In this document: in pieces, positions 11,331 through 51,346 of the stretch
Numbering within the stretch: position 1 is the first letter of the stretch
How the letters are laid out: each line of letters opens with the position of its first letter
Source: Nilaparvata lugens
Lineage: Eukaryota > Arthropoda > Insecta > Hemiptera > Delphacidae
Assembly (NCBI RefSeq): GCF_014356525.2
Contig: NC_052505.1
Coordinates: 13,247,098 to 13,311,097, forward strand
Direction: 5' to 3'
DNA length: 64,000 bases
Made by a program: the position numbers and the translations under genes
The notes under the pieces: model-generated
Database searches by the model: none
What the model was told of the DNA's origin: nothing
The model's input: only the letters and a program-made list of their open reading frames with translations

Positions 11331-11499
11331 ATTATTTTCCCTCATTTATTTTATTTTTATTTCTGATGGTGATCTGCAGAAACCCTAAAACTCTATTTGT
11401 TTTTGTATACTGTATTCATTTTCTATCATGAAATAATATTTCCTGTTTTCATAAAATTTTCTAGATTGAAGCAAATGTAAATGCTTTGATTGATAAAGG

Positions 11500-12321
11500 T
11501 ATAATTACAGATCTTTTGATTATGGAATAGACGGTTACTCGGTTATTGATAAGCCAGGCCAGCTGAACAAAAGTAACGGTCTGTGTTTGTTTGTGAGGGA
11601 TGGCATAAAGTTTGACTGTGTCAATTGTGAGAGCTCGGAGGCTGATATCGTCTCGATTAGATTACAAGCATTCGACTGCTTCTTATCGTTGATTGCCGTG
11701 TACAGATCACCCTCTGCTAATATTGAAGTTTTCTTTAACGAGTTAGATATTATTCTGAGAAATATTGATAAGAATGAGAATGCGGTTTTAATAGGAGATA
11801 TAAACATTGATATCTTACGTAACAGTAGTTTGGCAAATGAATATAGCGGTCTAATGCAAATGTATGGCCTGAGATCTCTTATTAATATACCTACTAGAGT
11901 AACACACAATACAGGTACATGCATAGACCACATTTTTTACAAAAATGCTAATTTTAAATATGAAAACATAATAAGCTCTGTTCAAAGGACCTGTATTACT
12001 GACCACTTCTGTACTACACTACACATAGGAAATTCAAACCCAGTCTATATTGATGTAAAGGAGAATATTATTAAACGGATAAACTATAAGAACCTTACGG
12101 ACAAGTTGAGACAGGAAAGTTGGAAGAATGAAACTACTTTTAATGAGGCTAATCTTGATTTGGATGACAAAATAAATGCTTTCTTTAATAAACTGATGGA
12201 CCACATAGATTCTGCGACCGAACAAATTAAAATGACAAATAAAAATAGACCATTAAAAAAATGGATAACTTCAGGGCTAATAAAATCCATAAGAGAGAGG
12301 GACAAACTACATAAAAACTAA
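11500..12321 (+). pseudogene. LINE endonuclease domain (partial, 5'-truncated)
   Basis: The frame is open from about 11500, well before the first start-like codon at 11587. It encodes the C-terminal two thirds of an AP-endonuclease-like (EEP) domain: GYSVIDKPG with LFVRDGIKF, then AVYRSPS, LIGDINIDIL (the GDFN-type motif, here GDIN), TCIDHIFY (the SxIDHI-type motif) and TDHF (the terminal SDH motif, here TDH). It would nick target DNA in an active element. The N-terminal catalytic segment is absent, so this copy is dead. A TAA at 12319 ends the frame; downstream reading resumes after a frameshift. Confidence 0.88.
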
Positions 12322-12361
12322 AATCCAACCATTTAATGCTACACTGAAAGCTAGATACAAA

Positions 12362-13658
12362 ACTATAGAAATCTACTTAACACATTAATTAAGAAAGCTA
12401 AACTAGACTACTTTAAAACTAAAATGTCAACTTGTAAAGGGAACAACAAAAAGACGTGGCTCTGTATAGAGGAAATTTTAGATATAAAACGAAATAGAAA
12501 AGCTCCTGACATCGACCCTATAATATTAAATAATTATTTCTCGCAAGTAGGTAGAAGTTATGCAGAAAATCTGAATAATAGTTTGAACTCAAGTCACCCA
12601 GTACCAACTTTAGTTCCACATACTCAACATTTTCGAGATTCGTTTTTCATTTTCCCTACAAATTCCGATGAAGTTGCTGCCATGATAAATACATTAAAAA
12701 CTAATTCATCTCCTGGTATTGATAATATAAGCAATGTTTGTTTGAAAAATATATCAGAATACATATCTCAGCCTTTATCAATTTTGTTTAACAAATGTTT
12801 CGAAACAGGTCATTTTCCTTCACACTTTAAGGTTGCAAATATAATTCCACTATTTAAATCAGGTGAGAGACAAGCTCCTGAAAATTATCGCCCTATTAGT
12901 TTAATAAGTAACCTGTCTAAGATTTTTGAAAAATTGATGAAGGTACGTATGATGAAATATCTTCAAAGGCATAATTTAATAGCAGAAAATCATTTGGTTT
13001 TCAAGAGGGAAAATGCACTGAGGATGCAATATCAGAGCTGGTGAGGATTGTGACAAATAATTTTCAGATGAACAGAAGGACCTTGGCTGTCTATTTGGAC
13101 TTAGCCAAGGCCTTTGATACTATTCCTCACATCTTTCTCTTGAGAAAGTTGGAGGGTATAGGTTTTCGTGGCACAGTTTTGAAATTTTTTGAGAATTATT
13201 TGAAAGACAGATCACAAATTCTGACTATAGATGGAAAAACCAGTAAACTAAATTTAACTGAGTTCGGCCTTCCACAGGGAACGGTTCTGTCACCAATTCT
13301 ATTTCTCCTCTATATTAATGACCTATTGAGACTTGATATAGCTGGTTGTCATTCGATCTCTTTTGCTGATGACACGGCATTGGTCTTTACTGGTTCAAGC
13401 TGGGATGAAGCTAAGCGCTTGGCAGAGTCTGGTCTCACGCGTGTTAAATCATGGCTTGACCAACACATTCTTACACTGAATGCCAATAAGAGTGTATATA
13501 TGGTATTCTCACCAGCAGTGAGCTCTCTCCCCAGAGATATTCTGAATACTGGTATCAGAATACACTCTTCAATCTGTCTTGAACGGGAAAGATTGCGGAC
13601 TGGTGATGGAGATTGTGATTGTCACTCATTAAAAAACGTGAAAGAACTAAATATCTAG
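12362..13658 (+). pseudogene. LINE reverse transcriptase core (frameshifted)
   Basis: Two overlapping frames (about 12362-13044 and 13041-13658) together carry the RT core. The first gives a basic linker, then SSPGIDNISN, NIIPLFKSGE with ENYRPISLISNLSKIFEK. The second gives VYLDLAKAFDTIPH (motif A, catalytic Asp), GLPQGTVLSPILFLLYINDL (motif B), SFADDTALVF (motif C, FADD) and LTLNANKS (motif D). The junction is a small indel near 13000-13010: the expected FQEGKCTEDAI continuation is in the other frame. All catalytic residues are still present, so damage is limited to frameshifts. Confidence 0.92.
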
Positions 13659-14239
13659 GAGTCTTTGTAGACTCTCATCTTAAATGGAATGCACATATAA
13701 ATAACATGTGTAAGAAAATGAAACACATAATTCACAAATTCCATAGATTGAATGAGCTCAATGACCCAACTATAATAAAGATGGCTTATTCAGCATATGC
13801 CCAGTCCATATTGCAATATGGTATTAGGGTATGGGGTGGAGCATTGGACATCCATTTTAATAAAATCTCCGTAATTCAAAGATATATTTTGAAAGCTGCA
13901 CTTGGAAGACCAAGACGATATCCCAGCCATAGCCTTTTTGCAGAGTTCCCAGTTTTAACAGTGAGACAACTTTACGTGAAAAACTTAATTCTAGCCGTTC
14001 ATAAGTATAAAAATCTCTTTGAAACTAACATTCCGTCGTATAATTTCCGTTCATTATCTCATTACCGCATTCCTAGAACAAATTTAACAGTATGCCGCAG
14101 GCAGTTCATATACATGAGTAATAGATTGATGAATATTTTGCCAGACCAATTAATCTCAGATAGATTTAATAAATCAGCCATTAAAAATATAGAGAGATGG
14201 ATCAGAAGTAACAATGTTTTTCACCTCATGTACAGTTAG
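13619..14239 (+). pseudogene. LINE ORF C-terminal region after RT
   Basis: Following a third frameshift near 13640, the frame reads KYLGVFVDSHLKWNAHI (the RT-9/thumb-type motif typical of CR1/Jockey LINEs), then a helical stretch with YAQSILQYGIRVWGGA and RPRRYPSHSLF, and ends at 14239 with a stop. No RNase H signature is visible. The length of about 200 residues after motif D is normal for these LINEs. The following ~100 bp are 3' UTR and the ATT-rich tail. Confidence 0.88.
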
Positions 14240-14340
14240 AATCTACTTTATTAAAAAAAAAACTTTTTTCTTTGATATTATTTTCACTAAGTTCTATTTT
14301 TTTCAGATATTATATTACCACAATTATTATTATTATTTAA

Positions 14341-15407
14341 GTTATTCATTTAATATCGAAAACTAATTGAATAAGTCACTTGTGAATACCCTTTGATCTT
14401 TTGTTTATTCTCTCAGTCAATTATTTGATTTATCCATTCATCATATAATATGATCACATAATTATAAAATAATGATATGAAATGAAGGAAAAGGCTCAGC
14501 CCTCACTATTTTATTCCCTTGCTCTTTATTCCTAATGATTATCATCCTTAGTCAATTTCATCTTAGCATTCATATATAGATCGATATCATGCAAGGACCT
14601 CATACTATAATTTCTTGTTATTCTATCAGAAAAGCTGGAAAAATGATCACATTGCGTGAATTGAATAAAAGAATGGTGGACCAGAAATATTGAGATTCAT
14701 TCAACTTGAAAACCAGAAACCACTAACTAGTACAGTCACAGTTGATGGTGGTCGGAAATTGTTATCAGAAAGTCCATAAAAATAATTTTATTGCTCGCAA
14801 GAGTAATAAAGCGCAGGTATTAATCTAACGCCAAAAACGGGCCTCGTGCGAGCATGAAATTGTGCAAAGGGAACAGTTTCACTGGGCAGACATTAGTTCT
14901 GAAGTCGAGGTGTTGGTGGCATAGGGTGTGGAATAAAATTCGTCAATGGGAGAGAGTGAGAGGGGACCATTAGGCAACGCACCAACAGTGAAAGGGTCAG
15001 TGCGCCCCTGGGTATATTAGAAGAGATTGGAAACGTATAAATCACAGGCCAGTAACACTGTGTGGCAGTATTGGTGCGCTCATATGAACTCCAACACCAA
15101 ACGAAAATGAGTCTTTGAGAGGTGACAAAATCATTGTTATCCCTTTCAACCGTTGATTATCTTTAAGCCATGTCCCCAATCGGACTTATGTTCTGCTTAG
15201 CATTGAAAAATTTATTGAGATCTATTGAGAAGAATCAGATTATCTACTCTCAGTAGTTGTAAATGGGATTTGATTCGATAAGTTTCATAATATTATAATG
15301 AATGAAGTGAACTATTCCATCGCTCAGATTCAAAATGAGTGACTATCGTTTTAGTGTTACCGCTATCAATAACTGATTGAAAATCACTTCCTGCCGATTT
15401 AGTATCA
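14341..15407. repeat. 1.07-kb direct duplication, right copy (flanks LINE)
   Basis: Right partner of 9881-10951. It starts directly after the ATT-rich tail of the LINE and runs to GATTTAGTATCA, after which the sequence is unique. The arrangement (host copy, element, host copy, each junction abutting) has the layout of a target-site duplication, but of about 1.07 kb instead of the usual 5-20 bp. Confidence 0.93.
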
Positions 15408-21791: not shown

Positions 21792-22163
21792 TTGAATGAA
21801 AAAGACTAAGAAATTGTCAAAAACCACAGATTCATTGATACTTAGAAAGACCGGTTTTGGTTATTACACCATTGTCAATTTCTGCTAAACTAAAACTGAA
21901 TACAAGAGCAGCAGAATTTATACTAGTAGGCGAGTACTGCTATTGGTCAAGGGCATGAACGCCTGCCATTGGCCCAGCTGGACAGTCTCCTCCCACTCAA
22001 TGGTGTGACAAAATGGCGGCTTCGCCTACTAGTATAAATTCTGCTGCTCTTGTATTTAGTTTTAGTTTAGCAGAGATTGACAATGGTGTAATAACCGAAA
22101 CCGGTCTTTCTAAGTATCAATAAATCTGTGGTTTTTGACAATTTCTTAGTTTTTTTCATTCAA
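21792..22163. mobile_element. Foldback MITE, 142-bp arms, 88-bp spacer
   Basis: Arms 21792-21933 and 22022-22163 are inverted copies of each other with only a few mismatches, starting TTGAATGAAAAAGACTAAG on one side and ending CTTAGTTTTTTTCATTCAA on the other. Each arm carries CAATGGTGTAATAACCGAAACCGG or its complement. No ORF is present, so it needs an external transposase or arises by another mechanism. Related halves are at 611-735 and 38411-38545. No clear target duplication was identified. Confidence 0.88.
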
Positions 22164-28573: not shown

Positions 28574-29820
28574 TGTATGGATTACACTGGTTAAAAGTCA
28601 TAGAGCTAGTTGACAAGTACAAAGTTGACAAAGACCTTTAGTTGGTAAAAATATTCACTAACCTAAAAACAGAGCTTGACAGTGGAAGAAGGAATATTCA
28701 CCTACTACATATGTGAAAAAGGTAGAAAGGAATATCTGACACTTGCGAAAGCATTTGTTCAATTTAGCATACAGCATGAATAGCGCATGAATACAGAAGC
28801 TATAGAGCCTACCTGCGTTACATTTGCCGCATTTGATCCCTGGTAAACACTATGGTGATGTCCACGTTATAATGGTAAAGAAAGATAGTACAACGTTGCC
28901 GATTCTCTGCCTTGTCACAGCCTTCCATAGAGGATAGCTGATACCGGTCTGATGTGATAATAACGGTTCTTGTTTAAAATAATCAATTATATCTTATTCA
29001 TTAAAAAATATTTCTTAATGATCAGAAAATAGATTTTCACCATAATTGAGATTGAATATTCCTTCATCAATTATATTCATACATTGTTGAAAAATTTCTG
29101 GCAAAGTTGCCGAGCTGGGAAAGGATAGCGCCATCTGCTTTGTCGAATGATAAATAAGGACAGCAACACCAATGATAATCAAATACTGCCTTCATAACGT
29201 GCATCTCACTAATGATATTCCACTATAATTCCTTAGTTAAATTCGCAATTCGTTGAAAAGTTTTAAATACAAAATTGAATGATGGATACTCCGGAGAATG
29301 TAAAGCTTTGTTTTTGAAGAATTATTTTACTTGACAAAAAAAATTAAAATTAATTTTCTGACAGTATGATCTGATACAGTTATAGTAGTTGCGATTCGAT
29401 TTTACTCTGTTCATGAGTTTGAAATAATATTGATAAATTGTTGCATCCCTAGCAGCCTAACTTTTACATTTTACCAATACTGTCTTATTCCATTGAGAGT
29501 ATGGAAATTGAACTAGCTACATCCTTGGGAGTAATGAAAGAAGCCAACAAGATATAGGCGTGAGCCGGGTTTATGTAATTTGTTACTGAAGTGTGAAAAG
29601 TAGGCTTGGTGCCAAAACTTGCTTCAGCTCTCTGATAAATATAGTGTGATCGCTTACAGCTAAGTATATGAAGCTATGCTTCTATTTATCCTCTCGATGC
29701 AAACCTCAGGCAGGAACTGGAAGCTGGTCTTGCACTAGAGACCAGCGCTATGTGACAGCACAATTTTTGCGAGCCGCACTATTTTATGACCGAACATATT
29801 AGAGAATTGCCGAGGTGGCC

Positions 29821-30078
29821 TCAGATACGTGATAGTCGTCCCCCCATTTTGCAGCCTAACTCCCGTCCCTGAATAGCAGCGCTGGAAACAGTTTTGGCTC
29901 TTTGCCTACAATAAATTTCACCTTTCGTCCAGAGACTTTTCTGCTCTTGGGCCGCCGCCCCTTGGCTCCTCGCTCCAAATGGACCCATCATCGCACTACT
30001 TTTCTGCCATATGTAGAGCTGGAGCTCGATTCTTTGTTCCCTTGTCAACAACGAATTCTGCAGCAAGGTGTTCTCCAT
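29821..30078 (-). other. 85-codon open frame, copy 1
   Basis: Begins MENTLLQNSLLTREQRIELQ, ends GCKMGGRLSRI, and lies in the most GC-rich part of the duplicated unit. No domain was recognised. Compared with the copy at 32178-32432 the visible differences are one in-frame 3-bp deletion (MGG versus VG) and one synonymous CAG/CAA change at residue 7. Two frame-friendly differences are suggestive but too few to prove coding. Confidence 0.25.
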
Positions 30079-30426
30079 TTACTTATTCTTACTTCCTTTC
30101 TTGCCTGCTATTCATGCGATCCAGCCAGTTGATATGGATTGGAAATCTTTATTTCAGTTTATACTGATATAACAGTACTCATTTCAAAAGAATTTGAATT
30201 TGAATATAACGAGAACATAAGTACTCTTCAGTGTGATCAGGGAAACGATGAAAATAAATGAACAAAAAATGTGGTTCTAGTAGGTGGAACCAGAGACAAA
30301 CGTATTTCCTTTCATATCCGAATATCCTAAAAGTATTCTTTTATTTATGGTTGAACAATCAGTTTGAAAGACTTGAGGTTGATTCACAAGGAGTAGATCA
30401 AATATACATGTTATCTGAAACATTAA

Positions 30427-30500
30427 GAGCATGTTGAATTCGGAAAATTATCAAATACCACGAGAATCAATCAGAAAAGGCTTTTTTGAAAAGAGGGCTT
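30427..30500 (+). mobile_element. MITE fragment lacking its terminal repeat
   Basis: GAGCATGTTGAATTCGG, then TACCACGAGAATCAATCAGA and GGCTTTTTTG. Identical in layout to 32780-32865, but without the TGGCCCGGTTGCACA end, which was deleted here. Confidence 0.5.
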
Positions 30501-30689
30501 AGGTTAGTAAGGATACGGAAAGAAATAGTACAACTACGATTAACGTAGCTGAAATAGGAAATAATTCTACTGCATTTTTTGCAAGTGATCATTGGATAGT
30601 ATACAGCTGCGAAGACTAAGCTATAACCGATTTTTATCAACCAATCTCATTGTTATAAAGTGGAAATATAAGTAATCACAGGATGAGGG

Positions 30690-31338
30690 CCACATGTTGC
30701 TGTATGAGATTGCAAAGGTTGCACACTTTAAACTATCATCTTCTGAAATAGTTATTTGTGCAACTAGTGCGCTAAGTGACAGTTTGCTGCACCGAAAGAA
30801 ACATTTACGCACGAGGTTTAGGCGAGGGCGGGATGGTTTCTTGAGTGCAGCAGAGGAACTTCGCGCACGTTTTTCACATTAAAATTTTCCTACAGCTACC
30901 ATTGAATATGAGAAGTGGTTGATTATGGGTAAAATGATGACTGAAATCCATCGAATGTTTGTCTGTATAATTTTGTTATTAATGACGACTTTAATAATTT
31001 TGAGTAAATCTCAATTTCTACATAATTTTTCAACCAATCAATTTATGAATGAAAAAAATATTCTTAGAAATAATGAATAATTAATCATATTAAAATGTAT
31101 AATTTAATGAGTGCTCATTTTTGTTTATTTGAAAATCAGAAAAAAATAGATAGAACAAATTCACATTCAAAATACACGCCAACAATGTCAACAGCTGATT
31201 GGGATGGCTGCAAGAAAACACGCAAAGTATTAATAAGAGTACGCAAAGTAATACTTTGCGCACTAGAGCAGAAAAGTGATTCTTTGCGTTCTGTAATCAG
31301 TGCAGGAATGGTCACTTTTCAAGGTAACTGTAGGAAAA
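30690..31338 (+). repeat. Small-ORF repeat family, copy in first tandem unit
   Basis: Holds the outer block (30741-30887), an inverted-repeat end TTTTCCTACAGCTACC (about 30889), a 40-50 codon remnant beginning MGKMMTEIHRMFVC at 30928, the KSDSLRSVISAGMVTFQGN block (31270-31326) and the other end GGTAACTGTAGGAAAAA (31323-31339). Near 31240 the perfect palindrome CGCAAAGTAATACTTTGCG (arms CGCAAAGTA/TACTTTGCG sharing the centre) stands out. Confidence 0.65.
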
Positions 31339-32177
31339 AACTATTACTCAGGAAAAGATATTTCTTAATGATCAGAAAATAGATTTTCACCATAATTGAG
31401 ATTGAATATTCCTTCATCAATAAATTATATTCATACATTGTTGAAAAATTTCTGGCAAAGTTGCCGAGCTGGGAAAGGATAGCGCCATCTGCTTTGTCGA
31501 ATGATAAATAAGGACAGCAACACCAATGATAATCAAATACTGCCTTCATAACGTGCATCTCACTAATGATATTCCACTATAATTCCTTAGTTAAATTCGC
31601 AATTCGTTGAAAAGTTTTAAATACAAAATTGAATGATGGATACTCCGGAGAATGTAAAGCTTTGTTTTTGAAGAATTATTTTACTTGACAAAAAAAAATT
31701 AAAATTAATTTTCTGACAGTTTGATCTGATACAGTGTTATAGCAGTTGCGATTCGATTTTACTCTGTTCATGAGTTTGAAATAATATTGATAAATTGTTG
31801 CATCCCTAGCAGCCTAACTTTTACACATTGCCAATACTGTCTTATTCTATCGAGAGTATGGAAATTGAACCAGCTACATCCTTGGGAGTAATGAAAGAAG
31901 CCAACAAGATATAGGCGTGAGCCGGGTTTATGTAATTTGTTACTGAAGTGTGAAAAGTAGGCTTGGTGCCAAAACTTGCTTCAGCTCTCTAATAAATATA
32001 GTGTGATCGCTTACAGCTAAGTATATGAAGCTATGCTTCTATTTATCCTCTCGATGCAAACCTCAGGCAGGAACTGGAAGCTGGTCTTGCACTAGAGACC
32101 AGCGCTATGTGACAGCACAATTTTTGCGAGCCGCACTATTTTATGACCGAACATATTAGAGAATTGCCGAGGTGGCC

Positions 32178-32432
32178 TCAGATACGTGATAGTCGTCCCA
32201 CTTTGCAGCCTAACTCCCGTCCCTGAATAGCAGCGCTGGAAACAGTTTTGGCTCTTTGCCTACAATAAATTTCACCTTTCGTCCAGAGACTTTTCTGCTC
32301 TTGGGCCGCCGCCCCTTGGCTCCTCGCTCCAAATGGACCCATCATCGCACTACTTTTCTGCCATATGTAGAGCTGGAGCTCGATTCTTTGTTCCCTTGTC
32401 AACAACGAATTTTGCAGCAAGGTGTTCTCCAT
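32178..32432 (-). other. 84-codon open frame, copy 2
   Basis: Counterpart of 29821-30078, one codon shorter through an in-frame 3-bp difference near 32199. Same start and same end. No splice sites or domain are evident. Confidence 0.25.
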
Positions 32433-32779
32433 TTACTCATTCTTACTTCCTTTCTTGCCTACTATTCATGCGATCCAGCCAGTTGATATGGATTGGAAAT
32501 CTTTATTTCAGTTTATACTGATATAACAGTACTCATTTCAAAAGAATTTGAATTTGAATATAACGAGAACATAAGTACTCTTCAGTGTGATCAGGGAAAC
32601 GATGAAAATAAATGAACAAAAAATGTTTTTCTAGTAGGTGGAACCAGAGACAAACGTATTTCCTTTCATATCCGAATATCCTAAAAGTATTCTTTTATTT
32701 ATGATTGAACAATCAGTTTGAAAGACTTGAGGTTGATTCACAAGGAGTAGATCAAATATACATGTTATCTGAAACATTA

Positions 32780-32865
32780 TGGCCCGGTTGCACAAGAGCA
32801 TGTTGAATTAGGAAAATTATCAAATACCACGAGAATCAATCAGAAAAGGCTTTTTTGAAAAGAGG
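32780..32865 (+). mobile_element. MITE half with terminal TGGCCCGGTTGCACA
   Basis: Keeps the terminal motif at 32780-32794 and the central CACGAGAATCAATCAGA block. The right half is absent. The duplicate at 30427 has lost the end, so the terminal motif was present before the tandem duplication. Confidence 0.55.
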
Positions 32866-33057
32866 GCTTAGGTTAGTAAGGATACGGAAAGAAATAGTAC
32901 AACTACGATTAACGTAGCTGAAATAGGAAATAATTCTACTGCATTTTTTGCAAGTGATCATTGGATAGTATACAGCTGCGAAGACTAAGCTATAACCGAT
33001 TTTTATCAACCAATCTCATTGTTATAAAGTGGAAATATAAGTAATCACAGGATGAGG

Positions 33058-33704
33058 GCCACATGTTGCTGTATGAGATTGCAAAGGTTGCACACTTTAA
33101 ACTATCATCTTCTGAAATAGTTATTTGTGCAACTAGTGCGCTAAGTGACAGTTTGCTGCACCGAAAGAAACGTTTACGTACGAGGTTTAGGCGAGGGCGG
33201 GATGGTTTCTTGAGTGCAGCAGAGGAACTTTGCGCACGTTTTTCACATTAAAATTTTCCTACAGCTACCATTGAATATGAGAAGTGGTTGATTATGGGTA
33301 AAATGATGACTGAAATCCATCGAATGTTTGTCTGTATAATTTTGTTATTAATGACGACTTTAAAAATTTTGAGTAAATCTCAATTTCTACATAATTTTTC
33401 AACCAATCAATTTATGAATGAAAAAAATATTCTTAGAAATAATGAATAATTAATCATATTGAAATGTATAATTTAATGAGTGCTCATTTTTGTTTATTTG
33501 AAAATCAGAAAAAATAGATAGAACACACATTCAAAATACACGCCAACAATGTCAACAGCTGATTGGGATGGCTGCAAGAAAACACGCAAAGTATTAAGAG
33601 TACGCAAAGTAATACTTTGCGCACTAGAGCAGAAAAGTGATTCTTTGCGTTCTGTAATCAGTGCAGGAATGGTCACTTTTCAAGGTAACTGTAGGAAAAA
33701 ACTT
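33058..33704 (+). repeat. Small-ORF repeat family, copy in second tandem unit
   Basis: Duplicate of 30690-31338 with minor indels, including the same terminal inverted repeats and the CGCAAAGTA/TACTTTGCG palindrome near 33604. Present because the whole 2.35-kb unit was duplicated, not through a new insertion. Confidence 0.65.
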
Positions 33705-33757
33705 TTTTCAACAAGAGATAATGAAATTGATAAGACTATTACTCAGGAAAAGATAAC

Positions 33758-40945: not shown

Positions 40946-42101
40946 AGCCAAACTTCGAAGTGAGATAGAGTCTGTAGAAATAGATTGCAAAGTTTGAAAT
41001 TTGAGTCGGTCGATGCGTTTTCGATTGGCTGATTGTCTGTTGGGCTGACAGACTGATTTTCGGGGTCGGCTGCAGAAATGGATGCTCAGCAACAGATGTT
41101 CCGGGTCACGACAATGACTCCACCTTTTCCAACCGAGAGCTCACAACGAATGAAGAGCATGCCACCAAGGGGAAAATGTGTTTCCTAAGGAAATTGTTTT
41201 TCTTCACTGGAACGTTTCGATTCTTCTGAGAAAACAAGAAGGAAAATATATTGAGGAAGAGTTGCCATTGTTTTCTGGCTGCCCCAGCACCAACTACCGA
41301 CCGACATCGCTGCTATTTCAGATTCGTCTGTCTTTTGCGCTTCGCCGATTCTCATATTTCATGAATTTTATCGTTCTCCCTCATATGCACACTCGCTCCC
41401 CACATTCTCATATCATAGCGTGTGATTCATCTTGCAGACAAATTTCTTGCAATTCACGGAATTGGTGTCATCACATCATCATTGAAACAATAAGGGCGAA
41501 ATGTGATACACATTCATTTCCTCTCTATTTCCAGCTCCTTTCAACAGCTTTATACAGCGTTTCCCTTCCCATGGCATTCTCACATATTAGGTTAAAGGAA
41601 ACTTATGAGTGTGAAACAAGAGAAATAGGAGTGAGAGCAATTCTCATTTGTTATCATGGAATTGATAATTTTCGTGATCACGAGAGTACAGAAACTAAGA
41701 GTCAATTCGAAAAAAAATGTTTATGATACAATTTCAAATTCAATAAGGGAAAGAGAATTTTCCCATCATTTTTGTAAGCCTGACTGTGCAATTCATGTAG
41801 AGTACATGAGTTTGAAGCGTGAATCATGATCACTGGTTACTTACAGGCATTCCAAACTTGTCAATTATTTGAAATCCTTGACCATGGATTGACCTCCAGG
41901 TCACATTTGCAAATGATAGATGTTCCATGTAATGTAGTATTGTACCGAAGTGAGAAAAGCTGATTTGGAAAAGCCGATACTAAAAATGCATCTCACTAAT
42001 TTTTGGCAATATACTATCTCTATCGCTCCATCATAAATAGAATTACAATAATGGAACTGTGCAATTTGATGTTCAATTCGTTCATTTAGTACTTAACTCT
42101 A
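40946..42101. repeat. 1.16-kb direct duplication, left copy (flanks LTR element)
   Basis: Nearly identical to 49794-51346, starting at AGCCAAACTTCGAAG and ending at TACTTAACTCTA. It ends where the 3' LTR begins. It lacks a 399-bp segment that the right copy contains at 50912-51310. Only a few substitutions separate the copies (for example near 41590 versus 50438). Confidence 0.92.
41178..41726 (+). other. 182-codon open frame in duplicated flank (left)
   Basis: Opens with GTG, not ATG, and runs 182 codons with no recognisable domain; it is rich in H, S, C and I, as chance frames in this composition often are. The copy at 50026-50574 encodes the same protein. The recent duplication explains the identity, so conservation is not evidence of function. 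No splice or promoter signal was identified. Confidence 0.15.
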
Positions 42102-44745
42102 TTAGAATGACCTATTCCACCCTCTAGGTTTACTAATAATTGCGAAGTATTGCTACAACGCGGACTAGCTACAGCCGGGTATGGGTCGGGGTCGGTGACC
42201 GTATTGACTGGTGGAGATACCGGACCTACACTTCTCCCTCTATCCTGATTCTTTACCCTCTGCTTCTTTCGCGAGATTTTTACTTTCAGGGGAAGAGTGT
42301 TTACCCGTGGCGTTACTGGCCGATTCGGCCCTCGGCCTTTGGAATACAGGGTGGGTTTTAAGGGAGATTAAGATAACCCTATACAAGGAGACGGATCTGA
42401 CTATCAGATCCCTACCAATAATTCTATTTATAAAGGTAGTACGCAATCTGAACCAACTGCGAATTGACGGCGAGCAAGCTGTACCTGCAAGCCGGGATGT
42501 AGGTTTAATGGGGTTAAGGTGAGAGCTATAGAGAATAGGGTGCAGGGTATGAGGTATACGGTATAAGGTATAGGGAACAGAGAATCAATAATAAGATTAT
42601 TATTCTCTACAGCAAATAAATGTCTGCTCAATAATCCGCAATCTGAGAATTGCGCTCTAGCTCTCAGCAAGCTGGACCTGCTAGCTAAATACAGTATATC
42701 AATTTCAATTAAGTGGCAATTAAAATTTAGAGGATAAGGTTTCAGGTGTAGGATTTCTGAATCGCGAGCCTGCAGCTGCGAAAGGATTTTCAGCAATTCT
42801 GGAACTGCTAAACAGGATTTCCGCACTAGTCTGATGACTGCGCGCCGGTTATTAAGGGCCAGTCTGTAACTGCCCTTAAGGGTATGGGAATCACTCTCAA
42901 TCGTCCGAAACGCTTTTAAATTAATAGTCAGTATGTCGACTATTATGAGAGGATAGAAAAGATTTTTCACAGACACAGTCTGTAGAATAATATCGGGAAG
43001 ACAACAGTCTGTCGTTGTCAGGGTAGGAAAGGATTTTTCCAGGTTTTTCCACAAGGAAAATATCGAGTCAGAGACTCCTAATTCAGGAAAAGATTTCAAT
43101 ATACTTTTCCAAGTAATTGCCAGTCTAAGGACTACCACAAGATCGATCTCTATTTGCAACTGAGATCACGGGAAAATTCGTGAATTTTCCACAGGTAAAG
43201 CCAGCAAATAATATTTGCTATTAAAGAAGACAGGTTTCTAAGAATTTTAGAAAGGATTCGCGGGTCTGAAAACCCGCGACTAGGACGATCTCGAATCTGA
43301 AACTGAGATCAGGAAGGATTTTAACACAGGAAGAATTAAGAGAAGGAAGAGAAAGGATGCCGCAGTCTAGAAACTTCGGCGAGGAAGTCCTCAAGCTGTA
43401 CCTGAGAGCTAGAAGGATTTTAGAATAGGGAAAGTGAAGAGAAAGAAAGAGAATGGACGTCGCAGTCTAGAAACTTCGACAAGGACGAACTCAAGCTGCA
43501 CCTGAGTTCTCTAGGAAAAGGATTGGACTTTTCCTACTTGGAATTACAGCAAGTCAGAAACTGCTAAGCGAATTTAAAATACAGGGCCACTCTATAGTAT
43601 GAAAACTAAGCAAGGAAAATTTACCATAAATGATAATAATCTCTCTACAAGGATAAAAATTAATCGAGAAAACTTTTCTCAAAAGGAACAGGGATTTTCC
43701 CACAAGAATAAAAATTAATTGAGAAAAACTATTCTTAAAAAGGACAGGGATTTCCCTACAAGAATAAAAATTCAATGGAGAAAAATTACTCTTTAAACTA
43801 AAGGCCACCTTACTACAGAGAAGGAAAAATATACGGACTACCAGTCCTGACATACAATTACCTGAAATGACGTGGATACTGATACGGAGAATAGCGAACC
43901 GATTCCCACTTCCCGTATTATAATTAAAAACGTCGTGAAGCGACAGAGTCGAGACTTATAAATTAAGTACTCAAAAATAATCCGCTTTAAGAGCCTAGCT
44001 AAATTTCCCCACTCAACTATTTGTAGCACAAACTTGAGATCCCTTACAGGTTTCAAAACCAAGGATAACTCGTTCACCCCCAGTGATACGAATTTAGGAA
44101 AAATAACCAACAAGAAAGAAAATCCCCCAGGAAGTTCTATCTTCAAATACAGTCGGCAATTCGACATACAATATTCCATTCAATAAAATACAGAATAGAA
44201 TATTAACCCTCTAGTACACCACTATTAGGAGCGCCGCTCGGAACGCAGCCGTACACGAACCCGTTCACCGAACAACTGCTTCTCTCAGGTCTTCTTGGAG
44301 CTGCACCGGGTCGCTGAAAATTAGGAGGCGGGGGAAAAGAGCTTCCTGACCAATGAGAGTCTGAAAAGACGATCACGCCACTGGTCATGTGACGGGGTTT
44401 GACTCAGCTGCTCCTGATGCTAAGGGTGCAGCAAATGATGACAATACTGCTGATTCATATAGTAGATTAGGCCGGTAACAATATTTCTATTCCAGAAATT
44501 TCATGAAGAGCGATACCGACTCAACTCGGTAGCCGAGTGGTAAACAAGATCTGGAAATATCTGGTTAGATGAATCCGCTGCTGATGATTTAAAGGGTTGA
44601 CGGCGATGGTGATAATGCATACACTACTACGAATCTAACAAAATATATCAGGCAGTCGATCCTATTCCTATTCTAAATAAAATAAATTCGCTAAATTACG
44701 CTGGACGACGGCTCTCTATCCGTCACAAAAATTCACTTTGTGACA
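42102..44745 (-). repeat. 3' LTR of the Gag-only element (long, about 2.6 kb)
   Basis: The part 42102-44324 is shared with the right LTR. The remaining 44325-44745 has no counterpart on the right. In element orientation it starts TGTCACAAAG and contains an inverted repeat (GTCACAAA / TTTGTGAC, 44722-44744) at its tip; the downstream end is TCATTCTAAT, next to host sequence at 42101. It contains the hairpin array at 42393-43956 and a broken version of the long minus-strand frame seen intact in the right copy. LTRs over 2 kb are long for insects. Confidence 0.75.
42393..43956. repeat. Array of about 30 short hairpins with recurring loop motifs, left LTR
   Basis: Short perfect inverted repeats follow one another through 1.5 kb of the LTR: GGATCTGA/TCAGATCC (42393), CGCAAT/ATTGCG (42637), TTAAGGG+CAGT/ACTG+CCCTTAA (42852), GACAAC/GTTGTC (43000), GAGTC/GACTC (43065), GATCTC/GAGATC (43145 and again 43287), GGAAAATTC/GAATTTTCC (43171), AGCAAAT/ATTTGCT (43203), CGCGGGT/ACCCGCG (43259), GCCG/CGGC (43359), GTCG/CGAC (43459), GAACTCA/TGAGTTC (43487), TAGGAAAAG/CTTTTCCTA (43512), GGACT/AGTCC (43835). 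Many loops share TCTGnAAC or AGCTGnACC, while the stems differ and co-vary (same loop, GCCG/CGGC versus GTCG/CGAC). Units are often spaced by GGATTTT. The same array occurs in the right LTR. Confidence 0.8.
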
Positions 44746-45129: not shown

Positions 45130-47481
45130 CTACCTAATCAATACAGTACTGTTTCTACACTCGAGCGCCTTGAAACGCCCATTCGGCAACCCATCAGCAA
45201 TACTACCTATCTCTTTCGCTCTTCTCCGTCGGCCCCTATACCGTTGAAAACTGTAATACGATAAATTATTATCAAAGTCATTCACCCCTGATCTCTTTAC
45301 CACAGATCGGGTTTTCAACTCTTCTTTCCTACTAAATTCGCTACCGCTACGGCGATTTTCAAATGAATGAGTTACACTACAACGTGAGTCAGCTCTATTC
45401 AACACGCCCCCCTCTCTATGAGGAAAACGTGACAGTACATCCCGTACCACAACCTTACCCTGCCTATTCTCAATATTTAAAGCATTCCCCTGCTTCTCTA
45501 TATTTCTAGGACAAGTATAAAGTTCAATAGATTCAACTCTTCGATGGAGTTTTACTTTTTTCCCGCTTACAGGAGCTTGTTCAGAGATAGGTGAAAACTT
45601 TTCAAGTTTTCTTACAGGGGGTTTTTCTACCTTCTCCATCCCGGAGACAACTGATAATTTTCCCTCATCATCCCTACTCCTTAAGCGAATACCATGAGGC
45701 TGTAACTCTATTACAGCTCTCATATCACGGAGATTTTTCAACCCTAAAACCATTCGTGAACTTATATTAGGTGTGATAGATACCTTCCAATTATAATTTT
45801 TCCCACAAACGATAACCGGTAATATGGGCTCCCCCTCTACTCCAAGACGGTTAGCTACTTCAGAAGAGATAAATGTTTTATCTGTCGTCGTATCAATTGA
45901 AGCATTGAGATCCATTCCACCTACTCCCACATGGACATAAATCCCATCTCCATCACTCTCACTCTCCCGTCTCTCGCTAGCTACTGTAGCAACTTTCGAG
46001 ATACAAGACTTAGACATCCCTTCACGCTTTAAGCTACCTGTTACTCCATTATCTACTATACTAGGTTCCCACTCTACAATTCTATCACGCATTTGAATAT
46101 TCATATTATGATGCTTCATAAATGACATACCCAATGACACATCGTGGGAAAGCCCCTCTACAACTACCGGTTGAAATGAAACTAAAATATTTTCTACTTT
46201 TAAATTAGTTATAATTTTTGTGGAAAAATTATTATACTTCCCATTAGTTAATATTTCATGATGACTACAATTTTCTTTTCTAACACACCCTACTTGCTCT
46301 AACACTTTAAGAGCTTTTCCGCTAATACAGGATACCTCTACTCCCATATCTAATAGTGCAATAAATTTTTGCCCTGCAATTTCCACATCAATAAAAATGC
46401 GCTCATCCCCCAACTTTGACCTCGTACTTAAAACACGTGATGACTTCACTACAGCGATTCCTGATATCTTATTGGTTTGTGAGACACATTTACAATAATC
46501 AAAAATTTCTTTACACTTTTGACAACTAGAAATTTCGGGACAATTCGACTTCCAATGCCCTACTTTATTACAATTCCAACACTTAGGCTCTTGGATTTCT
46601 CCTACCCTATTTTCTCGCGTTTTCGACGCAGCCTTAGGTTGAAAATCACTCCGTTTTTCTCCATCATTTTTCGTGTTTTTCAGAGATAACCTCCCGTTTT
46701 TCTCTTCAGCACGAATCGCCTCATACTCTCTGGTTACATCTAACAACTCATCTACATTTTTAACCCCTACACTACGAACATATAATTTATACCTCGGTAA
46801 TAAATTTAAATACAATCTTTGAAGCATCCTATCCCCCTCATAACTACCTAACCGTCTCATTAAGGTAAGCAAGGCTTCGGCATACTCATCAGCCGGTTCG
46901 CCCTCCCTCTGCTTCCTTGCAATGATCTGACTCTCAAGGTCGTTACTATAAGAATGAGGATAATAACGGAGTTTAAATGCCTCTACAAAATCAGCCCACG
47001 TCCTCCACTGGGAGCGACGATTCCGCATCCAAAGTAGGGCTCCTCCCTCCATCAGCTCCGGCAAGGCTATAAGAGATTGCTCCCCAGAGATCCCATATGC
47101 GCCCTGGAGTTCCGCGAGCCTCTCGATGAAACTGGGAGCATCCGATACACCATCAAAATGTAAATTCCAACTTCTTACCTTGTCGCAGACTTCTCCCTGA
47201 CTATACGTGCCTGAAGAGCGGGATAGTGCCGGCTCTGTACCTGGTTGAGAGGCAGCATCGGTCCGGGATCGAAGGTGCTCGACCATCCTCCTCCTCAGCT
47301 CCTTCACAGTCCCCGCTGCCGACAGGCCGAGACTCTCTAGGTAGCCGACCGCTTCCTCCTTATTCAGCCGATACACCCACGACACTCTGGGGTCGGCTTC
47401 GCGTTCCGCGAGGTCCTCCCGGCGGACCGCCTGTACGACTTCATCATCCTGATGAGTAGTCTCTTCTCCGTGTACACTCAT
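45130..47481 (-). CDS. Gag polyprotein with zinc knuckle and two retropepsin-like domains (783 aa)
   Basis: Intact ORF starting at ATG 47481, about 85 nt inside the 5' LTR. Residues ~36-70 resemble a SAP-type helix-turn-helix (KEEAVGYLESLGLSAAGTVK). Residues ~105-255 are a retrotransposon Gag core (WNLHFDG, ALLWMRNRRSQW, FVEAFKLRYYP, KQREGEPADEYAEAL). A CCHC knuckle lies at 301-314 (CX2CX4HX4C), followed by four more cysteines at 320-332. Residues ~360-472 are retropepsin-like (FIALLDMGVEVSCIS, then VSLGMSFMKHH), but the usual D-T/S-G is DMG. A second similar unit spans ~514-600 (ASIDTTTDKTFISSEVANRL, then MVLGLKNLR) with DTT. Near 676-687, VVVRDVLSRFP resembles the connector after RNase H in gypsy Pol, hinting at an internal deletion. 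The role is particle formation; protease activity is doubtful. Confidence 0.88.
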   Translation of the reverse strand: MSVHGEETTHQDDEVVQAVRREDLAEREADPRVSWVYRLNKEEAVGYLESLGLSAAGTVKELRRRMVEHLRSRTDAASQPGTEPALSRSSGTYSQGEVCDKVRSWNLHFDGVSDAPSFIERLAELQGAYGISGEQSLIALPELMEGGALLWMRNRRSQWRTWADFVEAFKLRYYPHSYSNDLESQIIARKQREGEPADEYAEALLTLMRRLGSYEGDRMLQRLYLNLLPRYKLYVRSVGVKNVDELLDVTREYEAIRAEEKNGRLSLKNTKNDGEKRSDFQPKAASKTRENRVGEIQEPKCWNCNKVGHWKSNCPEISSCQKCKEIFDYCKCVSQTNKISGIAVVKSSRVLSTRSKLGDERIFIDVEIAGQKFIALLDMGVEVSCISGKALKVLEQVGCVRKENCSHHEILTNGKYNNFSTKIITNLKVENILVSFQPVVVEGLSHDVSLGMSFMKHHNMNIQMRDRIVEWEPSIVDNGVTGSLKREGMSKSCISKVATVASERRESESDGDGIYVHVGVGGMDLNASIDTTTDKTFISSEVANRLGVEGEPILPVIVCGKNYNWKVSITPNISSRMVLGLKNLRDMRAVIELQPHGIRLRSRDDEGKLSVVSGMEKVEKPPVRKLEKFSPISEQAPVSGKKVKLHRRVESIELYTCPRNIEKQGNALNIENRQGKVVVRDVLSRFPHREGGVLNRADSRCSVTHSFENRRSGSEFSRKEELKTRSVVKRSGVNDFDNNLSYYSFQRYRGRRRRAKEIGSIADGLPNGRFKALECRNSTVLIR

Positions 47482-47518
47482 CGCGGATTGGGATTCACCT
47501 AAACCCTCTTCGCGATTT

Positions 47519-47566
47519 TCTTGGGCGCCAGACGTCTTAGCCCCACGATGGGAGACGTCAGTTTTA
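47519..47566 (-). promoter_or_regulatory. Possible primer-binding region next to the 5' LTR
   Basis: Just inside the LTR boundary the minus strand reads CCCATCGTGGGGC (complement of 47540-47552), which partly resembles a lysine-tRNA 3'-end complement, and a little further in TGGCGCCCAAG (complement of 47520-47530), which starts with the TGG expected of a primer-binding site. Neither is a full 18-nt match as far as I can judge without tRNA sequences to compare. Position and composition fit; identity is uncertain. Confidence 0.3.
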
Positions 47567-47704
47567 TTAGAATGACCTATTCCACCCTCTAGGTTTACTA
47601 ATAATTGCGAAGTATTGCTACAACGCGGACTAGCTACAGCCGGGTATGGGTCGGGGTCGGTGACCGTATTGACTGGTGGAGATACCGGACCTACACTTCT
47701 CCCT

Positions 47705-48607
47705 CTATCCTGATTCTTTACCCTCTGCTTCTTTCGCGAGATTTTTACTTTCAGGGGAAGAGTGTTTGCCCGTGCCGTTGCTGGCCGATTCGGCCCTCGG
47801 CCTTTGGAATACAGGGTGGGTTTTAAGGGAGATTAAGATAACCCTATACAAGGAGACGGATCTGACTATCAGATCCCTACCAATAATTCTATTTATAAAG
47901 GTAGTACGCAATCTGAACCAACTGCGAATTGACGGCGAGCAAGCTGTACCTGCAAGCCCGGGATGTAGGTTTTCAATGGGGTTTAAGGTGAGAGCTATAG
48001 AGAATAGGGTGCAGGGTATGAGGTATACGGTATAAGGTATAGGGAACAGAGAATCAATAATAAGATTATTATTCTCTACAGCAAATAAATGTCTGCTCAA
48101 TAATCCGCAATCTGAGAATTGCGCTCTAGCTCTCAGCAAGCTGGACCTGCTAGCTAAATACAGTATATCAATTTCAATTAAGTGGCAATTAAAATTTAGA
48201 GGATAAGGTTTCAGGTGTAGGATTTCTGAATCGCGAGCCTGCAGCTGCGAAAGGATTTTCAGCAATTCTGGAACTGCTAAACAGGATTTCCGCACTAGTC
48301 TGATGACTGCGCGCCGGTTATTAAGGGCCAGTCTGTAACTGCCCTTAAGGGTATGGGAATCACTCTCAATCGTCCGAAACGCTTTTAAATTAATAGTCAG
48401 TATGTCGACTATTATGAGAGGATAGAAAAGATTTTTCACAGACACAGTCTGTAGAATAATATCGGGAAGACAACAGTCTGTCGTTGTCAGGGTAGGAAAG
48501 GATTTTTCCAGGTTTTTCCACAAGGAAAATATCGAGTCAGAGACTCCTAACTCAGGAAAAGATTTCAATAGACTTTTCCAAGTAATTGCCAGTCTAAGGA
48601 CTACCAC
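47705..48607 (-). other. 300-codon open frame inside the 5' LTR
   Basis: A 903-nt frame in the sense direction of the element, overlapping the hairpin array. The equivalent in the left LTR is split by small indels near 42495-42517 into 243- and 68-codon parts. It has no recognisable domain and an ordinary mixture of residues. A frame this long is unusual by chance, but the loss of the frame in the sister LTR argues against constraint. I list it as an open frame, not a gene. Confidence 0.25.
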
Positions 48608-49420
48608 AAGATCGATCTCTAATTTGCAACTGAGATCACGGGAAAATTCGTGAATTTTCCACAGGTAAAGCCAGCAAATAATATTTGCTATTAAAGAAGA
48701 CAGGTTTCTAAGAATTTTAGAAAGGATTCGCGGGTCTGAAAACCCGCGACTAGGACGATCTCGAATCTGAAACTGAGATCAGGAAGGATTTTAACACAGG
48801 AAGAATTAAGAGAAAGAAAGAGAAAGGATGCCGCAGTCTAGAAACTTCGGCGAGGAAGTCCTCAAGCTGTACCTGAGAGCTAGAAGGATTTTAGAATAGG
48901 GAAAGTGAAGAGAAAGAAAGAGAATGGACGTCGCAGTCTAGAAACTTCGACAAGGACGAACTCAAGCTGCACCTGAGTTCTCTAGGAAAAGGATTGGACT
49001 TTTCCTACTTGGAATTACAGCAAGTCAGAAACTGCTAAGCGAATTTAAAATACAGGGCCACTCTATAGTATGAAAACTAAGCAAGGAAAATTTACCATAA
49101 ATGATAATAATCTCTCTACAAGGATAAAATTAATCGAGAAAACTTTTCTCAAAAGGAACAGGGATTTTCCCACAAGAATAAAAATTAATTGAGAAAAACT
49201 ATTCTTAAAAAGGACAGGGATTTCCCTACAAGAATAAAAATTCAATGGAGAAAAATTACTCTTTAAACTAAAGGCCACCTTACTACAGAGAAGGAAAAAT
49301 ATACGGACTACCAGTCCTGACATACAATTACCTGAAATGACGTGGATACTGATACGGAGAATAGCGAACCGATTCCCACTTCCCGTATTATAATTAAAAA
49401 CGTCGTGAAGCGACAGAGTC
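47859..49420. repeat. Hairpin array, right LTR copy
   Basis: The same ordered series of inverted repeats as at 42393-43956. The few differences between the two LTRs fall mostly in loops and spacers, for example one extra A in the loop of the GATCTC/GAGATC hairpin near 48614 and a T-to-G change in the loop of the GGAAAAG/CTTTTCC hairpin near 48570. Both leave the stems intact. Confidence 0.75.
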
Positions 49421-49793
49421 GAGACTTATAAATTAAGTACTCAAAAATAATCCGCTATAAGAGCCTAGCTAAATTTCCCCACTCAACTATTTGTAGCACA
49501 AACTTGAGATCCCTTACAGGTTTCAAAACCAAGGATAACTCGTTCACCCCCAGTGATACGAATTTAGGAAAAATAACCAACAAGAAAGAAAATCCCCCAG
49601 GAAGTTCTATCTTCAAATACAGTCGGCAATTCGACATACAATATTCCATTCACTAAAATACAGAATAGAATATTAACCCTCTAGTACACCACTATTAGGA
49701 GCGCCGCTCGGAACGCAGCCGTACACGAACCCGTTCACCGAACAACTGCTTTCTCTCAGGTCTTCTTGGAGCTGCACCGGGTCGCTGAAAATT

Positions 49794-51346
49794 AGCCAAA
49801 CTTCGAAGTGAGATAGAGTCTGTAGAAATAGATTGCAAAGTTTGAAATTTGAGTCGGTCGATGCGTTTTCGATTGGCTGATTGTCTGTTGGGCTGACAGA
49901 CTGATTTTCGGGGTCGGCTGCAGAAATGGATGCTCAGCAACAGATGTTCCGGGTCACGACAATGACTCCACCTTTTCCAACCGAGAGCTCACAACGAATG
50001 AAGAGCATGCCACCAAGGGGAAAATGTGTTTCCTAAGGAAATTGTTTTTCTTCACTGGAACGTTTCGATTCTTCTGAGAAAACAAGAAGGAAAATATATT
50101 GAGGAAGAGTTGCCATTGTTTTCTGGCTGCCCCAGCACCAACTACCGACCGACATCGCTGCTATTTCAGATTCGTCTGTCTTTTGCGCTTCGCCGATTCT
50201 CATATTTCATGAATTTTATCGTTCTCCCTCATATGCACACTCGCTCCCCACATTCTCATATCATAGCGTGTGATTCATCTTGCAGACAAATTTCTTGCAA
50301 TTCACGGAATTGGTGTCATCACATCATCATTGAAACAATAAGGGCGAAATGTGATACACATTCATTTCCTCTCTATTTCCAGCTCCTTTCAACAGCTTTA
50401 TACAGCGTTTCCCTTCCCATGGCATTCTCACATATTAGATTAAAGGAAACTTATGAGTGTGAAACAAGAGAAATAGGAGTGAGAGCAATTCTCATTTGTT
50501 ATCATGGAATTGATAATTTTCGTGATCACGAGAGTACAGAAACTAAGAGTCAATTCGAAAAAAAATGTTTATGATACAATTTCAAATTCAATAAGGGAAA
50601 GAGAATTTTCCTATCATTTTTGTAAGCCTGACTGTGCAATTCATGTAGAGTACATGAGTTTGAAGCGTGAATCATGATCACTGGTTACTTACAGGCATTC
50701 CAAACTTGTCAATTATTTGAAATCCTTGACCATGGATTGACCTCCAGGTCACATTTGCAAATGATAGATGTTCCATGTAATGTAGTATTGTACCGAAGTG
50801 AGAAAAGCTGATTTGGAAAAGCCGATACTAAAAATGCATCTCACTAATTTTTGGCAATATACTATCTCTATCGCTCCATCATAAATAGAATTACAATAAT
50901 GGAACTGTGCAAATCTATTTTTAGTTCTCCGGGGCATTCACGATTCCCTCTTCAACAAATTAAGTGCTTTAAATCCCAAGAAGCTTAAAAATCACTTCCC
51001 ATGGAATCCATAAGATGAACATTTTCATTCCAGATATACACTTTTGCAGCTTTTGAAATGGTCTTATTTTTCCGATGCTTCCGGAGTATCTACGGCTTTG
51101 CTCTTGACACGGTCCAATTAAAATTTTCCTTTCTTGAAAATTGAAATTCTTGGAAATTTCAATCACTCGTTATGCTTGGGAAAAATAAGGGACTTAATTT
51201 TCATTTATCAATGGGTTTGAAGGCTTATGATTGAGGAATCTCTCACTGGATTCATTCATGAGTATCAGTTCAGTTTCATTTGAATCTTCTCGTTGAAAAT
51301 AACATTGGCTTTGATGTTCAATTCGTTCATTTAGTACTTAACTCTA
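49794..51346. repeat. Direct duplication, right copy with a 0.4-kb extra segment
   Basis: Matches 40946-42101, but contains an extra 399 bp at 50912-51310 (from AATCTATTTTTAGTTC to AACATTGGCT). The extra segment has no obvious target-site duplication or terminal repeats, so it may be ancestral sequence deleted from the left copy. The left boundary joins the truncated 5' LTR with 2 bp (AG) of microhomology. Confidence 0.9.
50026..50574 (+). other. 182-codon open frame in duplicated flank (right)
   Basis: Second copy of the frame at 41178-41726 with identical translation. The one substitution noticed within it (near 50438) is silent, since the affected arginine codon remains arginine. One silent change is too little to infer selection. 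Confidence 0.15.

Follow-up and report, generated by a model that had tools for sequence, protein, structure and literature searches.

A tandem hairpin array in the AUG-free leader of a Nilaparvata lugens LTR retrotransposon as a candidate RNA docking structure

A pol-deleted retrotransposon and its hairpin array

The stretch of DNA analyzed here (the window) comprises 64,000 nucleotides of the planthopper Nilaparvata lugens (contig NC_052505.1, positions 13,247,098 to 13,311,097). On its minus strand lies an LTR retrotransposon in which two long terminal repeats (LTRs), each carrying the array of short hairpins that is the subject of this study, surround a gag-protease frame:

42100-44324, minus strand: 3' LTR, direct repeat 99.3% identical to 47565-49795
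45130-47481, minus strand: gag and protease frame, from the ATG at 47481 (open frame 45130-47832)
47565-49795, minus strand: 5' LTR, direct repeat 99.3% identical to 42100-44324

The gag frame matches the Pfam domains Retrotrans_gag, zf-CCHC (a CCHC knuckle), and gag-asp_proteas (an aspartic protease). Reverse transcriptase (RT) and integrase are absent from it, and the window copy is without the RT-RNase H part of its relative P0001, a 1573-amino-acid gag-pol protein of N. lugens that was the one match in a protein search with the window gag (60% identity over 73%; the 7996 candidates with most shared words were scored) and is present at 100% in the same genome. The two LTRs, a gag with CCHC knuckle and aspartic protease, and the gag-pol relative are the features by which we class the element as a Ty3/gypsy-type LTR retrotransposon. 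At least 44 genome matches to the LTR zone were found (40 of 1098 candidates scored). LTR pairs of the window family are spaced 5.39-5.48 kb apart in 6 of 8 cases (one 4.78 kb, one 12.5 kb), so that the shortened, pol-deleted form itself has multiplied. Seven pairs of the relative are 8.5-9.5 kb apart and one 10.2 kb, and its queried leader piece was found on both sides of gag-pol, which places its array inside the LTR as well.

A first-pass annotation of the window had described a chain of about 30 short hairpins with recurring loops along the 3' LTR. All inverted repeats that it named are present where it placed them, including the identical 14-nt loop carried by GCCG/CGGC at 43359 and by GTCG/CGAC at 43459, and its total was fair, as we count 29 hairpins (18 strict ones plus 11 weaker ones from folding and the covariance model introduced below). 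It had read the plus strand, which is the wrong one: gag lies on the minus strand, and the structure also fits the minus strand better by both its G.U pairs and its fold strength (see next section). The array is present in both LTR copies:

42393-43680, minus strand: hairpin array, 3' LTR copy (stem counts, folding against shuffles)
47862-49150, minus strand: hairpin array, 5' LTR copy (stem counts; 17 model matches between 47902 and 49040)

Strict stems (non-overlapping, perfect, at least 6 bp, loop 3-20) were counted over 42393-43956 and number 19, compared with 5.8 ± 2.2 in dinucleotide shuffles (maximum 11, n = 60), the control that the annotation had proposed, and 6.8 ± 2.3 in trinucleotide shuffles (maximum 14, n = 200). 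Stems of at least 7 bp number 12 against 1.5 and 2.0, respectively. Across the 64 kb, the 1564-base segments starting at 42229 and 47703, that is, the LTRs, have the highest counts (20 stems of at least 6 bp and 12 of at least 7 bp each), and the next-highest segment away from the LTRs has 15 and 6. It had also been claimed that pairing is kept and not bases, unlike in ordinary tandem repeats; the pairing holds, but tandem repetition is present too (Tandem Repeats Finder reports a 100-base unit ×2.3 and a 56-base unit ×2.7 in the LTR), so that bases and pairing are both inherited. These units lie ahead of gag, as in the tandem-repeat 5' untranslated regions (UTRs) of other LTR retrotransposons. 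Rfam 15 gave no match at gathering score on either strand of the window, and the tRNA, plasmid DNA, and viral contig searches gave no match.

The LTR ends (42100, 44324, 47565, and 49795) read TATTAG...ATTAG on the plus strand, and the usual TG...CA is absent. A direct repeat of host DNA of about 1.15 kb flanks the element (40949-42101 and 49796-51346; 1127 bases at 99.6%), with about 400 additional bases at 50913-51309 in the right-hand copy. It looks like the product of recombination between homologues that carried insertions 1.15 kb apart, or of two haplotypes merged in the assembly, and not like a normal target-site duplication.

Sense-strand pairing around a shared core

Local folding yields 56 G.U pairs on the minus (sense) strand and 29 on the plus strand. 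Measured against trinucleotide shuffles, the fold z of the window zone is -7.05 for sense and -4.59 for antisense, and that of L031, a relative with a 60% identical Gag and a longer array, is -10.7 and -2.8. In a strand-blind selection of stems (perfect, at least 4 bp, loop up to 16), we scored the first mismatch inside or outside the stem and found it to be a sense wobble in 29 of 84 cases, compared with about 14 expected (binomial P = 6e-5), and an antisense wobble in 13, compared with about 12 expected (direct contrast 29:13, P = 0.03). Stricter stems gave sense wobbles in 12 of 43 (at least 5 bp, P = 0.047) and 10 of 28 cases (at least 6 bp, P = 0.012), with 6 and 2 on the antisense side; outside the element, sense and antisense wobbles are equally frequent (86/85 and 116/110 for stems of at least 5 bp). 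Neither DNA palindromes nor copying errors would be expected to favor the sense strand in this way.

On the sense strand, 17 of the 29 hairpins have a common core, AG-N-Y-[N..CA]-G-N-Y-U, with a loop that mostly ends in CA. In order, its pairs are A-U in most cases, G-Y, one that covaries freely, and a closing U.G, C-G, or U-A, while the lower stems are variable. A covariance model (R1) was built from these 17 hairpins, and its bit scores are given for the 3' LTR copy:

43543-43569, minus strand: core hairpin (weak), 10.6 bits
43485-43510, minus strand: core hairpin, 17.5 bits
43457-43482, minus strand: core hairpin with GTCG/CGAC stem, 14.2 bits
43385-43410, minus strand: core hairpin, 21.4 bits
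43357-43382, minus strand: core hairpin with GCCG/CGGC stem, compensated partner of 43457, 15.3 bits
43286-43311, minus strand: core hairpin, 22.1 bits
43256-43281, minus strand: core hairpin, 12.8 bits
43169-43253, minus strand: three hairpins without core at 43171-43190, 43203-43219, and 43235-43253 (stem count, folding)
43143-43168, minus strand: core hairpin (core weakened), 14.3 bits
43114-43140, minus strand: core hairpin (variant), 18.0 bits
42853-42878, minus strand: core hairpin, 22.1 bits
42820-42846, minus strand: core hairpin, 19.1 bits
42787-42813, minus strand: core hairpin, 16.4 bits
42760-42784, minus strand: core hairpin with C-G at the third core pair, 16.4 bits
42661-42686, minus strand: core hairpin, 20.8 bits
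42632-42658, minus strand: core hairpin, with an A-U to G-C double change in the relative, 21.3 bits
42468-42493, minus strand: core hairpin, 17.5 bits
42437-42465, minus strand: core hairpin (longer loop), 16.6 bits
42393-42411, minus strand: 8-bp hairpin without core, pairing kept in the relative (stem count, comparison with the relative)

To avoid picking hairpins by their stems, we also searched for the core first, using the pattern AG-N-T-N(1,2)-CAG-N-Y-T without any stem. This search gave 7 matches in the 3' LTR and 7 in the 5' LTR, all sense, with 2-6 Watson-Crick pairs in succession flanking each one (allowing a 3' bulge of 0-1); at the 8 other matches in the window (2 on the minus strand, one of them inside the element, and 6 on the plus strand), the flanking arms pair over 0-1 bp. 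In the window, R1 yields 55 matches at E <= 10, including 17 sense-strand places in each LTR; that the LTRs match follows from the way the model was built, and the top score elsewhere is 15.5 bits. On L031 and on L032, a part of another copy, neither of which was used in the model, it finds 66 places (50 + 16, E <= 0.5), again all sense.

Changes on the two sides of a stem go together in these arrays. The window array has 14 cells changed on both sides compared with 7.1 ± 2.0 in shuffles, and the 37 distinct rows of L031 and L032 give a covariation of 0.462 compared with 0.239 ± 0.021 and 41 two-sided cells compared with 18.0 ± 2.4. The compensated exchange between GCCG/CGGC and GTCG/CGAC, which the first-pass annotation had singled out from two hairpins, proved to be general: in 26 copies of the A-AGT..AGACT-G core (from L031, L032, and the window 5' LTR), the arms are GTCG/CGAC in 12, GCCG/CGGC in 7, and GTTG/CAAC in 4, with one each of GCCG/CGGT, GTTG/CGAC, and TGTG/CAAC. 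Watson-Crick pairs fill 100 of the 104 arm cells, compared with a permuted mean of 81.6 and maximum of 92, and the two single-step states (GCCG/CGGT and GTTG/CGAC) are G.U on the sense strand. The arms are perfect in 20 of 21 cases in L034. The units of these arrays hold one or two hairpins, in steps of 57 and 100 bases, and their order differs among L031, L033, and L034. Mixed arm combinations (GCCG/CGAC, GTCG/CAAC, GTCG/CGGC) occur in L033, a copy of the relative (C12:19419400-19422660), as if units had recombined inside hairpins.

Structure is also kept between the window and L031. We could place 22 of the 29 hairpins, of which 5 are identical, 2 were skipped for gaps, and 15 were counted; these 15 keep -115.5 kcal/mol compared with -71.7 ± 8.3 for an equal number of random changes. 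Three of the 15 are aligned to a neighboring paralogue (43258, 43287, 42468) and one is doubtful (42587), and for the 11 surely orthologous hairpins the effect is smaller but stands (-81.8 compared with -62.4 ± 7.2; sense P = 0.004, antisense P = 0.027).

Within the window family, we compared 30 sequences, the window 3' LTR and L002-L030 (30 of the 44 matches were retrieved, and L001 was left out because it is identical), in which changes confined to a single row mostly represent decay after insertion and those in several rows mostly stem from moving lineages. Pairing is kept or broken in a ratio of 24:11 for shared changes compared with 30:42 for single ones (P = 0.013), and the shared ratio falls to between 11:24 and 17:19 when the partners are slid by 1-3 columns. 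Changes in at least 3 rows fall on paired and unpaired sites at 11:32, compared with 72:86 for single changes (P = 0.023). All 107 changed pair states in the 30 sequences are one-sided and none is two-sided.

The AUG-free leader and other retrotransposon families

The sense strand ahead of gag is devoid of start codons:

47482-49097, minus strand: AUG-free leader ahead of gag (0 ATG; 47481 is the next ATG after 49098)
42085-43627, minus strand: the same AUG-free stretch in the 3' LTR (ATG count)

From 49098 down to the gag AUG there is no ATG in 1617 nt, compared with 18.3 ± 3.3 in shuffles (minimum 8, n = 400); the antisense strand of this leader has 14, and the next-longest ATG-free gap on the sense strand outside the LTRs measures 388. 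The array zone is AUG-free in 29 of 30 family sequences (L024 has one AUG). The gag ATG is the first in 2834 nt in L031 (19.9 ± 3.8 expected) and the first in 2639 nt in L033, and L032 is AUG-free over all 1415 nt at hand. As stops are not depleted in total, this leader is not a hidden coding sequence. The 5' LTR does hold 357 stop-free codons at 47705-48778 on the minus strand, more than any of 400 shuffles, a frame that we rejected as coding because it has no Met and no Pfam match and because every frame of the relative's leader contains stops (39/39/31).

As controls we took six pieces upstream of other gag genes (L035-L040, from 150 Pfam matches, all on the plus strand and with open frames), for which the gag start is merely the first in-frame ATG. 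Four of them, from other gypsy-type lineages of this genome, also have long AUG-free stretches (L036, L037, L038, and L040 with 2134, 2279, 2371, and 1486 nt; L035 and L039 have 667 and 363), and we have therefore withdrawn the idea that the AUG desert is special to this clade. In L038 the stretch stops 533 nt before the assumed gag start and further AUGs follow, and the antisense strands of L036 and L037 are ATG-poor too (longest gaps 1336 and 1545). The four leaders are tandemly built, with 149-base units in L036 and L037 (8.5 and 9.5 copies) and 47-base units in L038 and L040 (44 and 21 copies); L035 matches L036 along the leader, and L039 matches only in the gag part. No control matched L031 among the matches listed at E <= 1e-6, and their core motifs number 0-1. 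The antisense z runs close behind the sense z in the controls (-1.31 sense and -1.03 antisense in L036, compared with -1.39 and -0.26 in L031), and the control arrays fold better on the antisense strand in 4 of 4 measured; RNA selection is thus not demonstrated for those families. In the 47-base unit, all five two-sided changes that keep pairing fall on a single pair, which in its commonest state is unpaired. AUG-free tandem leaders are thus a broader feature of this genome, and the core array with sense covariation is, as far as we have looked, specific to this clade.

Elsewhere in the window, direct repeats of about 1.1 kb (9866-10951 and 14326-15407; 92-98% by segment) flank frames at 11497-14239 that on visual inspection resemble a non-LTR endonuclease/reverse transcriptase, and a stretch of about 2.35 kb is tandemly duplicated at 29059-33706 (segments 97-100% identical). 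Two very strong single folds on the minus strand at 62641 and 23881 (z -15.7 and -11.3) and a 142-base inverted repeat at 21792-22163 (96% complementary) are probably foldback or MITE-type elements.

Possible functions and known systems

It is well supported that the array belongs, as an RNA feature, to the sense transcript of the element, located ahead of gag, with units in tandem and an apical core shared on variable lower stems, and we consider it very probable that this sense-strand structure is under selection. Selection for RNA structure was one of two explanations offered in the first-pass annotation and is borne out by strand-specific pairing, G.U intermediates, pairing-keeping changes in moving lineages, and structure kept in a diverged relative. 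The other, a loop-directed copying process, is not: no stem changed on both sides in the 30 family sequences, and the units repeat in tandem.

Repetition of one- and two-hairpin units probably supplied the hairpin copies, and selection would have kept core and pairing while the stem letters drifted via G.U. A fixed apical core on variable stems has the look of repeated protein docking, and the likeliest partner would be the element's own Gag, since the array occupies the usual position of a packaging signal, the protein contains a CCHC knuckle, and the array persists in the pol-deleted family, which depends on help in trans. The knuckle might dock on many loops, and genomic RNA could thereby be chosen, paired, and condensed into particles in the manner of a multi-hairpin packaging region. 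The array shares with retroviral-type packaging signals its place in the leader ahead of gag and, by sequence evidence only, conserved hairpins in the sense transcript; that the window family keeps it though moved in trans is what a cis-acting packaging region would require. The AUG purge would fit ribosomes that scan linearly from the cap to the gag AUG. Our best explanation as a whole, a selected RNA structure grown by tandem duplication that most likely serves as a multivalent Gag docking array, has in our view a little under an even chance of being right, and the packaging role of Gag docking is itself a tentative prediction. It is doubtful, if conceivable, that these elements represent a novel class of retroelement leader, namely a self-expanding array of RNA docking hairpins (with a novel shared core, the Y-NCA-G loop), AUG-free up to 2.8 kb, that may have arisen several times, given the unrelated sequences of the AUG-free repeat leaders in other planthopper gypsy families, with hairpin number as the evolving trait and a multivalent RNA-Gag assembly scaffold as its purpose.

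Several observations weigh against these interpretations. The core is absent from 12 of the 29 hairpins, the hairpin at 43045-43060 is lost and that at 43487-43509 weakened in L031, and the arms of L033 are perfect in only 14 of 19 cases (3 with wobble, 2 with C.A). Neither the number of pairs changed on both sides nor that of additional pair types exceeds shuffles, be it in the window or in L031/L032, and the covariation alignments were fitted to the structure and contain related rows, which inflate such scores. A count over all predicted helices between window and L031, which mixes spurious helices and misaligned units, is weak (8 kept double changes compared with 2-6 in slid controls). The P values for shared and single changes are modest, come from several tests, and rest on related rows (the two LTRs of one insertion form two rows). 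Whole control pieces have a sense z of -1.3 to -1.7, compared with -1.4 for L031. Placement of the array in R/U5 is inferred. With regard to packaging, other families have AUG-free repeat leaders that lack the core, so that the AUG purge argues for scanning and not for packaging; and as the leader also serves gag translation, packaging is not the only possible reason for the pol-deleted family to retain it.

An unlikely but serious alternative is that the hairpins serve not Gag but a host RNA-binding protein or the tuning of translation, as an export element or through RNA stability or controlled scanning. Such a role would leave the same traces as Gag docking and draws on the same RNA-level evidence, export and decay elements also work through repeated loops, and a leader free of AUGs up to the gag start is a translation-related constraint, but 17-50 copies of the core appear to be a large number for a control element.

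Explanations that dispense with RNA recognition fare worse, and copying mechanisms and DNA-level functions fit less well than selected RNA structure. Template switching during replication or reverse transcription, or palindrome correction, could make and mend inverted repeats that tandem duplication then spreads; template switching can indeed create and maintain hairpins (PMC8794818), many stems are perfect, and tandem units exist. Hairpins made in this way should show two-sided changes arising together and no strand preference, yet wobble excess and fold strength favor the sense strand, two-sided changes are missing in the 30 sequences, single-row changes break pairing in 42 of 72 cases, G.U intermediates are seen, and the AUG purge is left unexplained, all of which makes a purely mutational origin improbable. 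Also quite improbable is a shielding function, by which short stems would guard the leader against piRNA/siRNA targeting or exonucleases: the insect transposon RNA is densely set with short hairpins and its stems are too short for Dicer, in line with such a role, but it leaves the shared core sequence unexplained. We regard as very improbable a DNA-level element with tandem insulator- or heterochromatin-type binding sites like those in the repeated 5' UTRs of gypsy, ZAM, and Tirant. Place and tandem layout are similar, and 19 of 49 5' UTRs of Drosophila LTR retrotransposons are described as tandemly repeated, some of them acting as insulators (PMC8872304), but a DNA site needs neither arms that vary while pairing holds on one strand nor a core on the sense strand. 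Chance in a skewed sequence with tandem units is disfavored by the di- and trinucleotide shuffles, the strand test, the core-first test, and the relatives and is extremely improbable, even though the antisense fold of the arrays in other families is at least as good as the sense fold.

Near-copies by the tens, with stems that drifted in matched pairs around a fixed core, amount to a natural RNA-recognition experiment within one genome. The array could reveal the pairs that tolerate variation, the letters that do not, and the course of copy-number evolution, and it would allow a direct test of the number of Gag-binding hairpins required by a retroelement RNA. With AUG-free leaders as long as 2.8 kb, it seems that scanning ribosomes have to pass dozens of hairpins, a point of interest for the limit of scanning distance.

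Retroviral psi is similar in its exposed-loop hairpins ahead of gag and in a Gag with a CCHC knuckle. Psi consists of a handful of hairpins in a few hundred bases, in contrast to 17 to 50 core hairpins over about 1.2-2.4 kb, inside the LTR, in the window clade, where Gag is a putative ligand. Retroviral LTRs with long R regions are described as holding conserved stem-loops (PMC3601003). The first-pass annotation knew of no described LTR with this architecture, and the literature searched, which mostly did not extend to subscription papers, yielded no account of an LTR with an AUG-free array of tandem hairpins; tandem repetition of LTR-retrotransposon 5' UTRs is, however, known from Drosophila. 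The 5' UTRs of gypsy, ZAM, Tirant, accord, and Idefix are, like that of the window element, tandemly repeated ahead of gag and are described as polymorphic, but they are discussed as DNA sites (insulator, HP1, RpL22 motif), and the words "hairpin" and "stem-loop" are absent from the main text of that account (PMC8872304). The Conserved Hairpin Site of fungal GalEa Copia elements likewise is a conserved hairpin directly after the 5' LTR, though as described it is a single hairpin and no array, in elements without a primer binding site (PMC5445492). Plant pararetroviruses with ribosome shunting have long structured leaders too (PMC5902531), which are described as containing short upstream open reading frames, unlike the planthopper leader without AUG. 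Packaging signals with a repeated loop motif on many stem-loops are reported from single-stranded RNA viruses and hepatitis B virus (e.g., PMC6281560, PMC7612645); there they are dispersed across the genomes, whereas the planthopper array stands in tandem in the untranslated leader of a retrotransposon.

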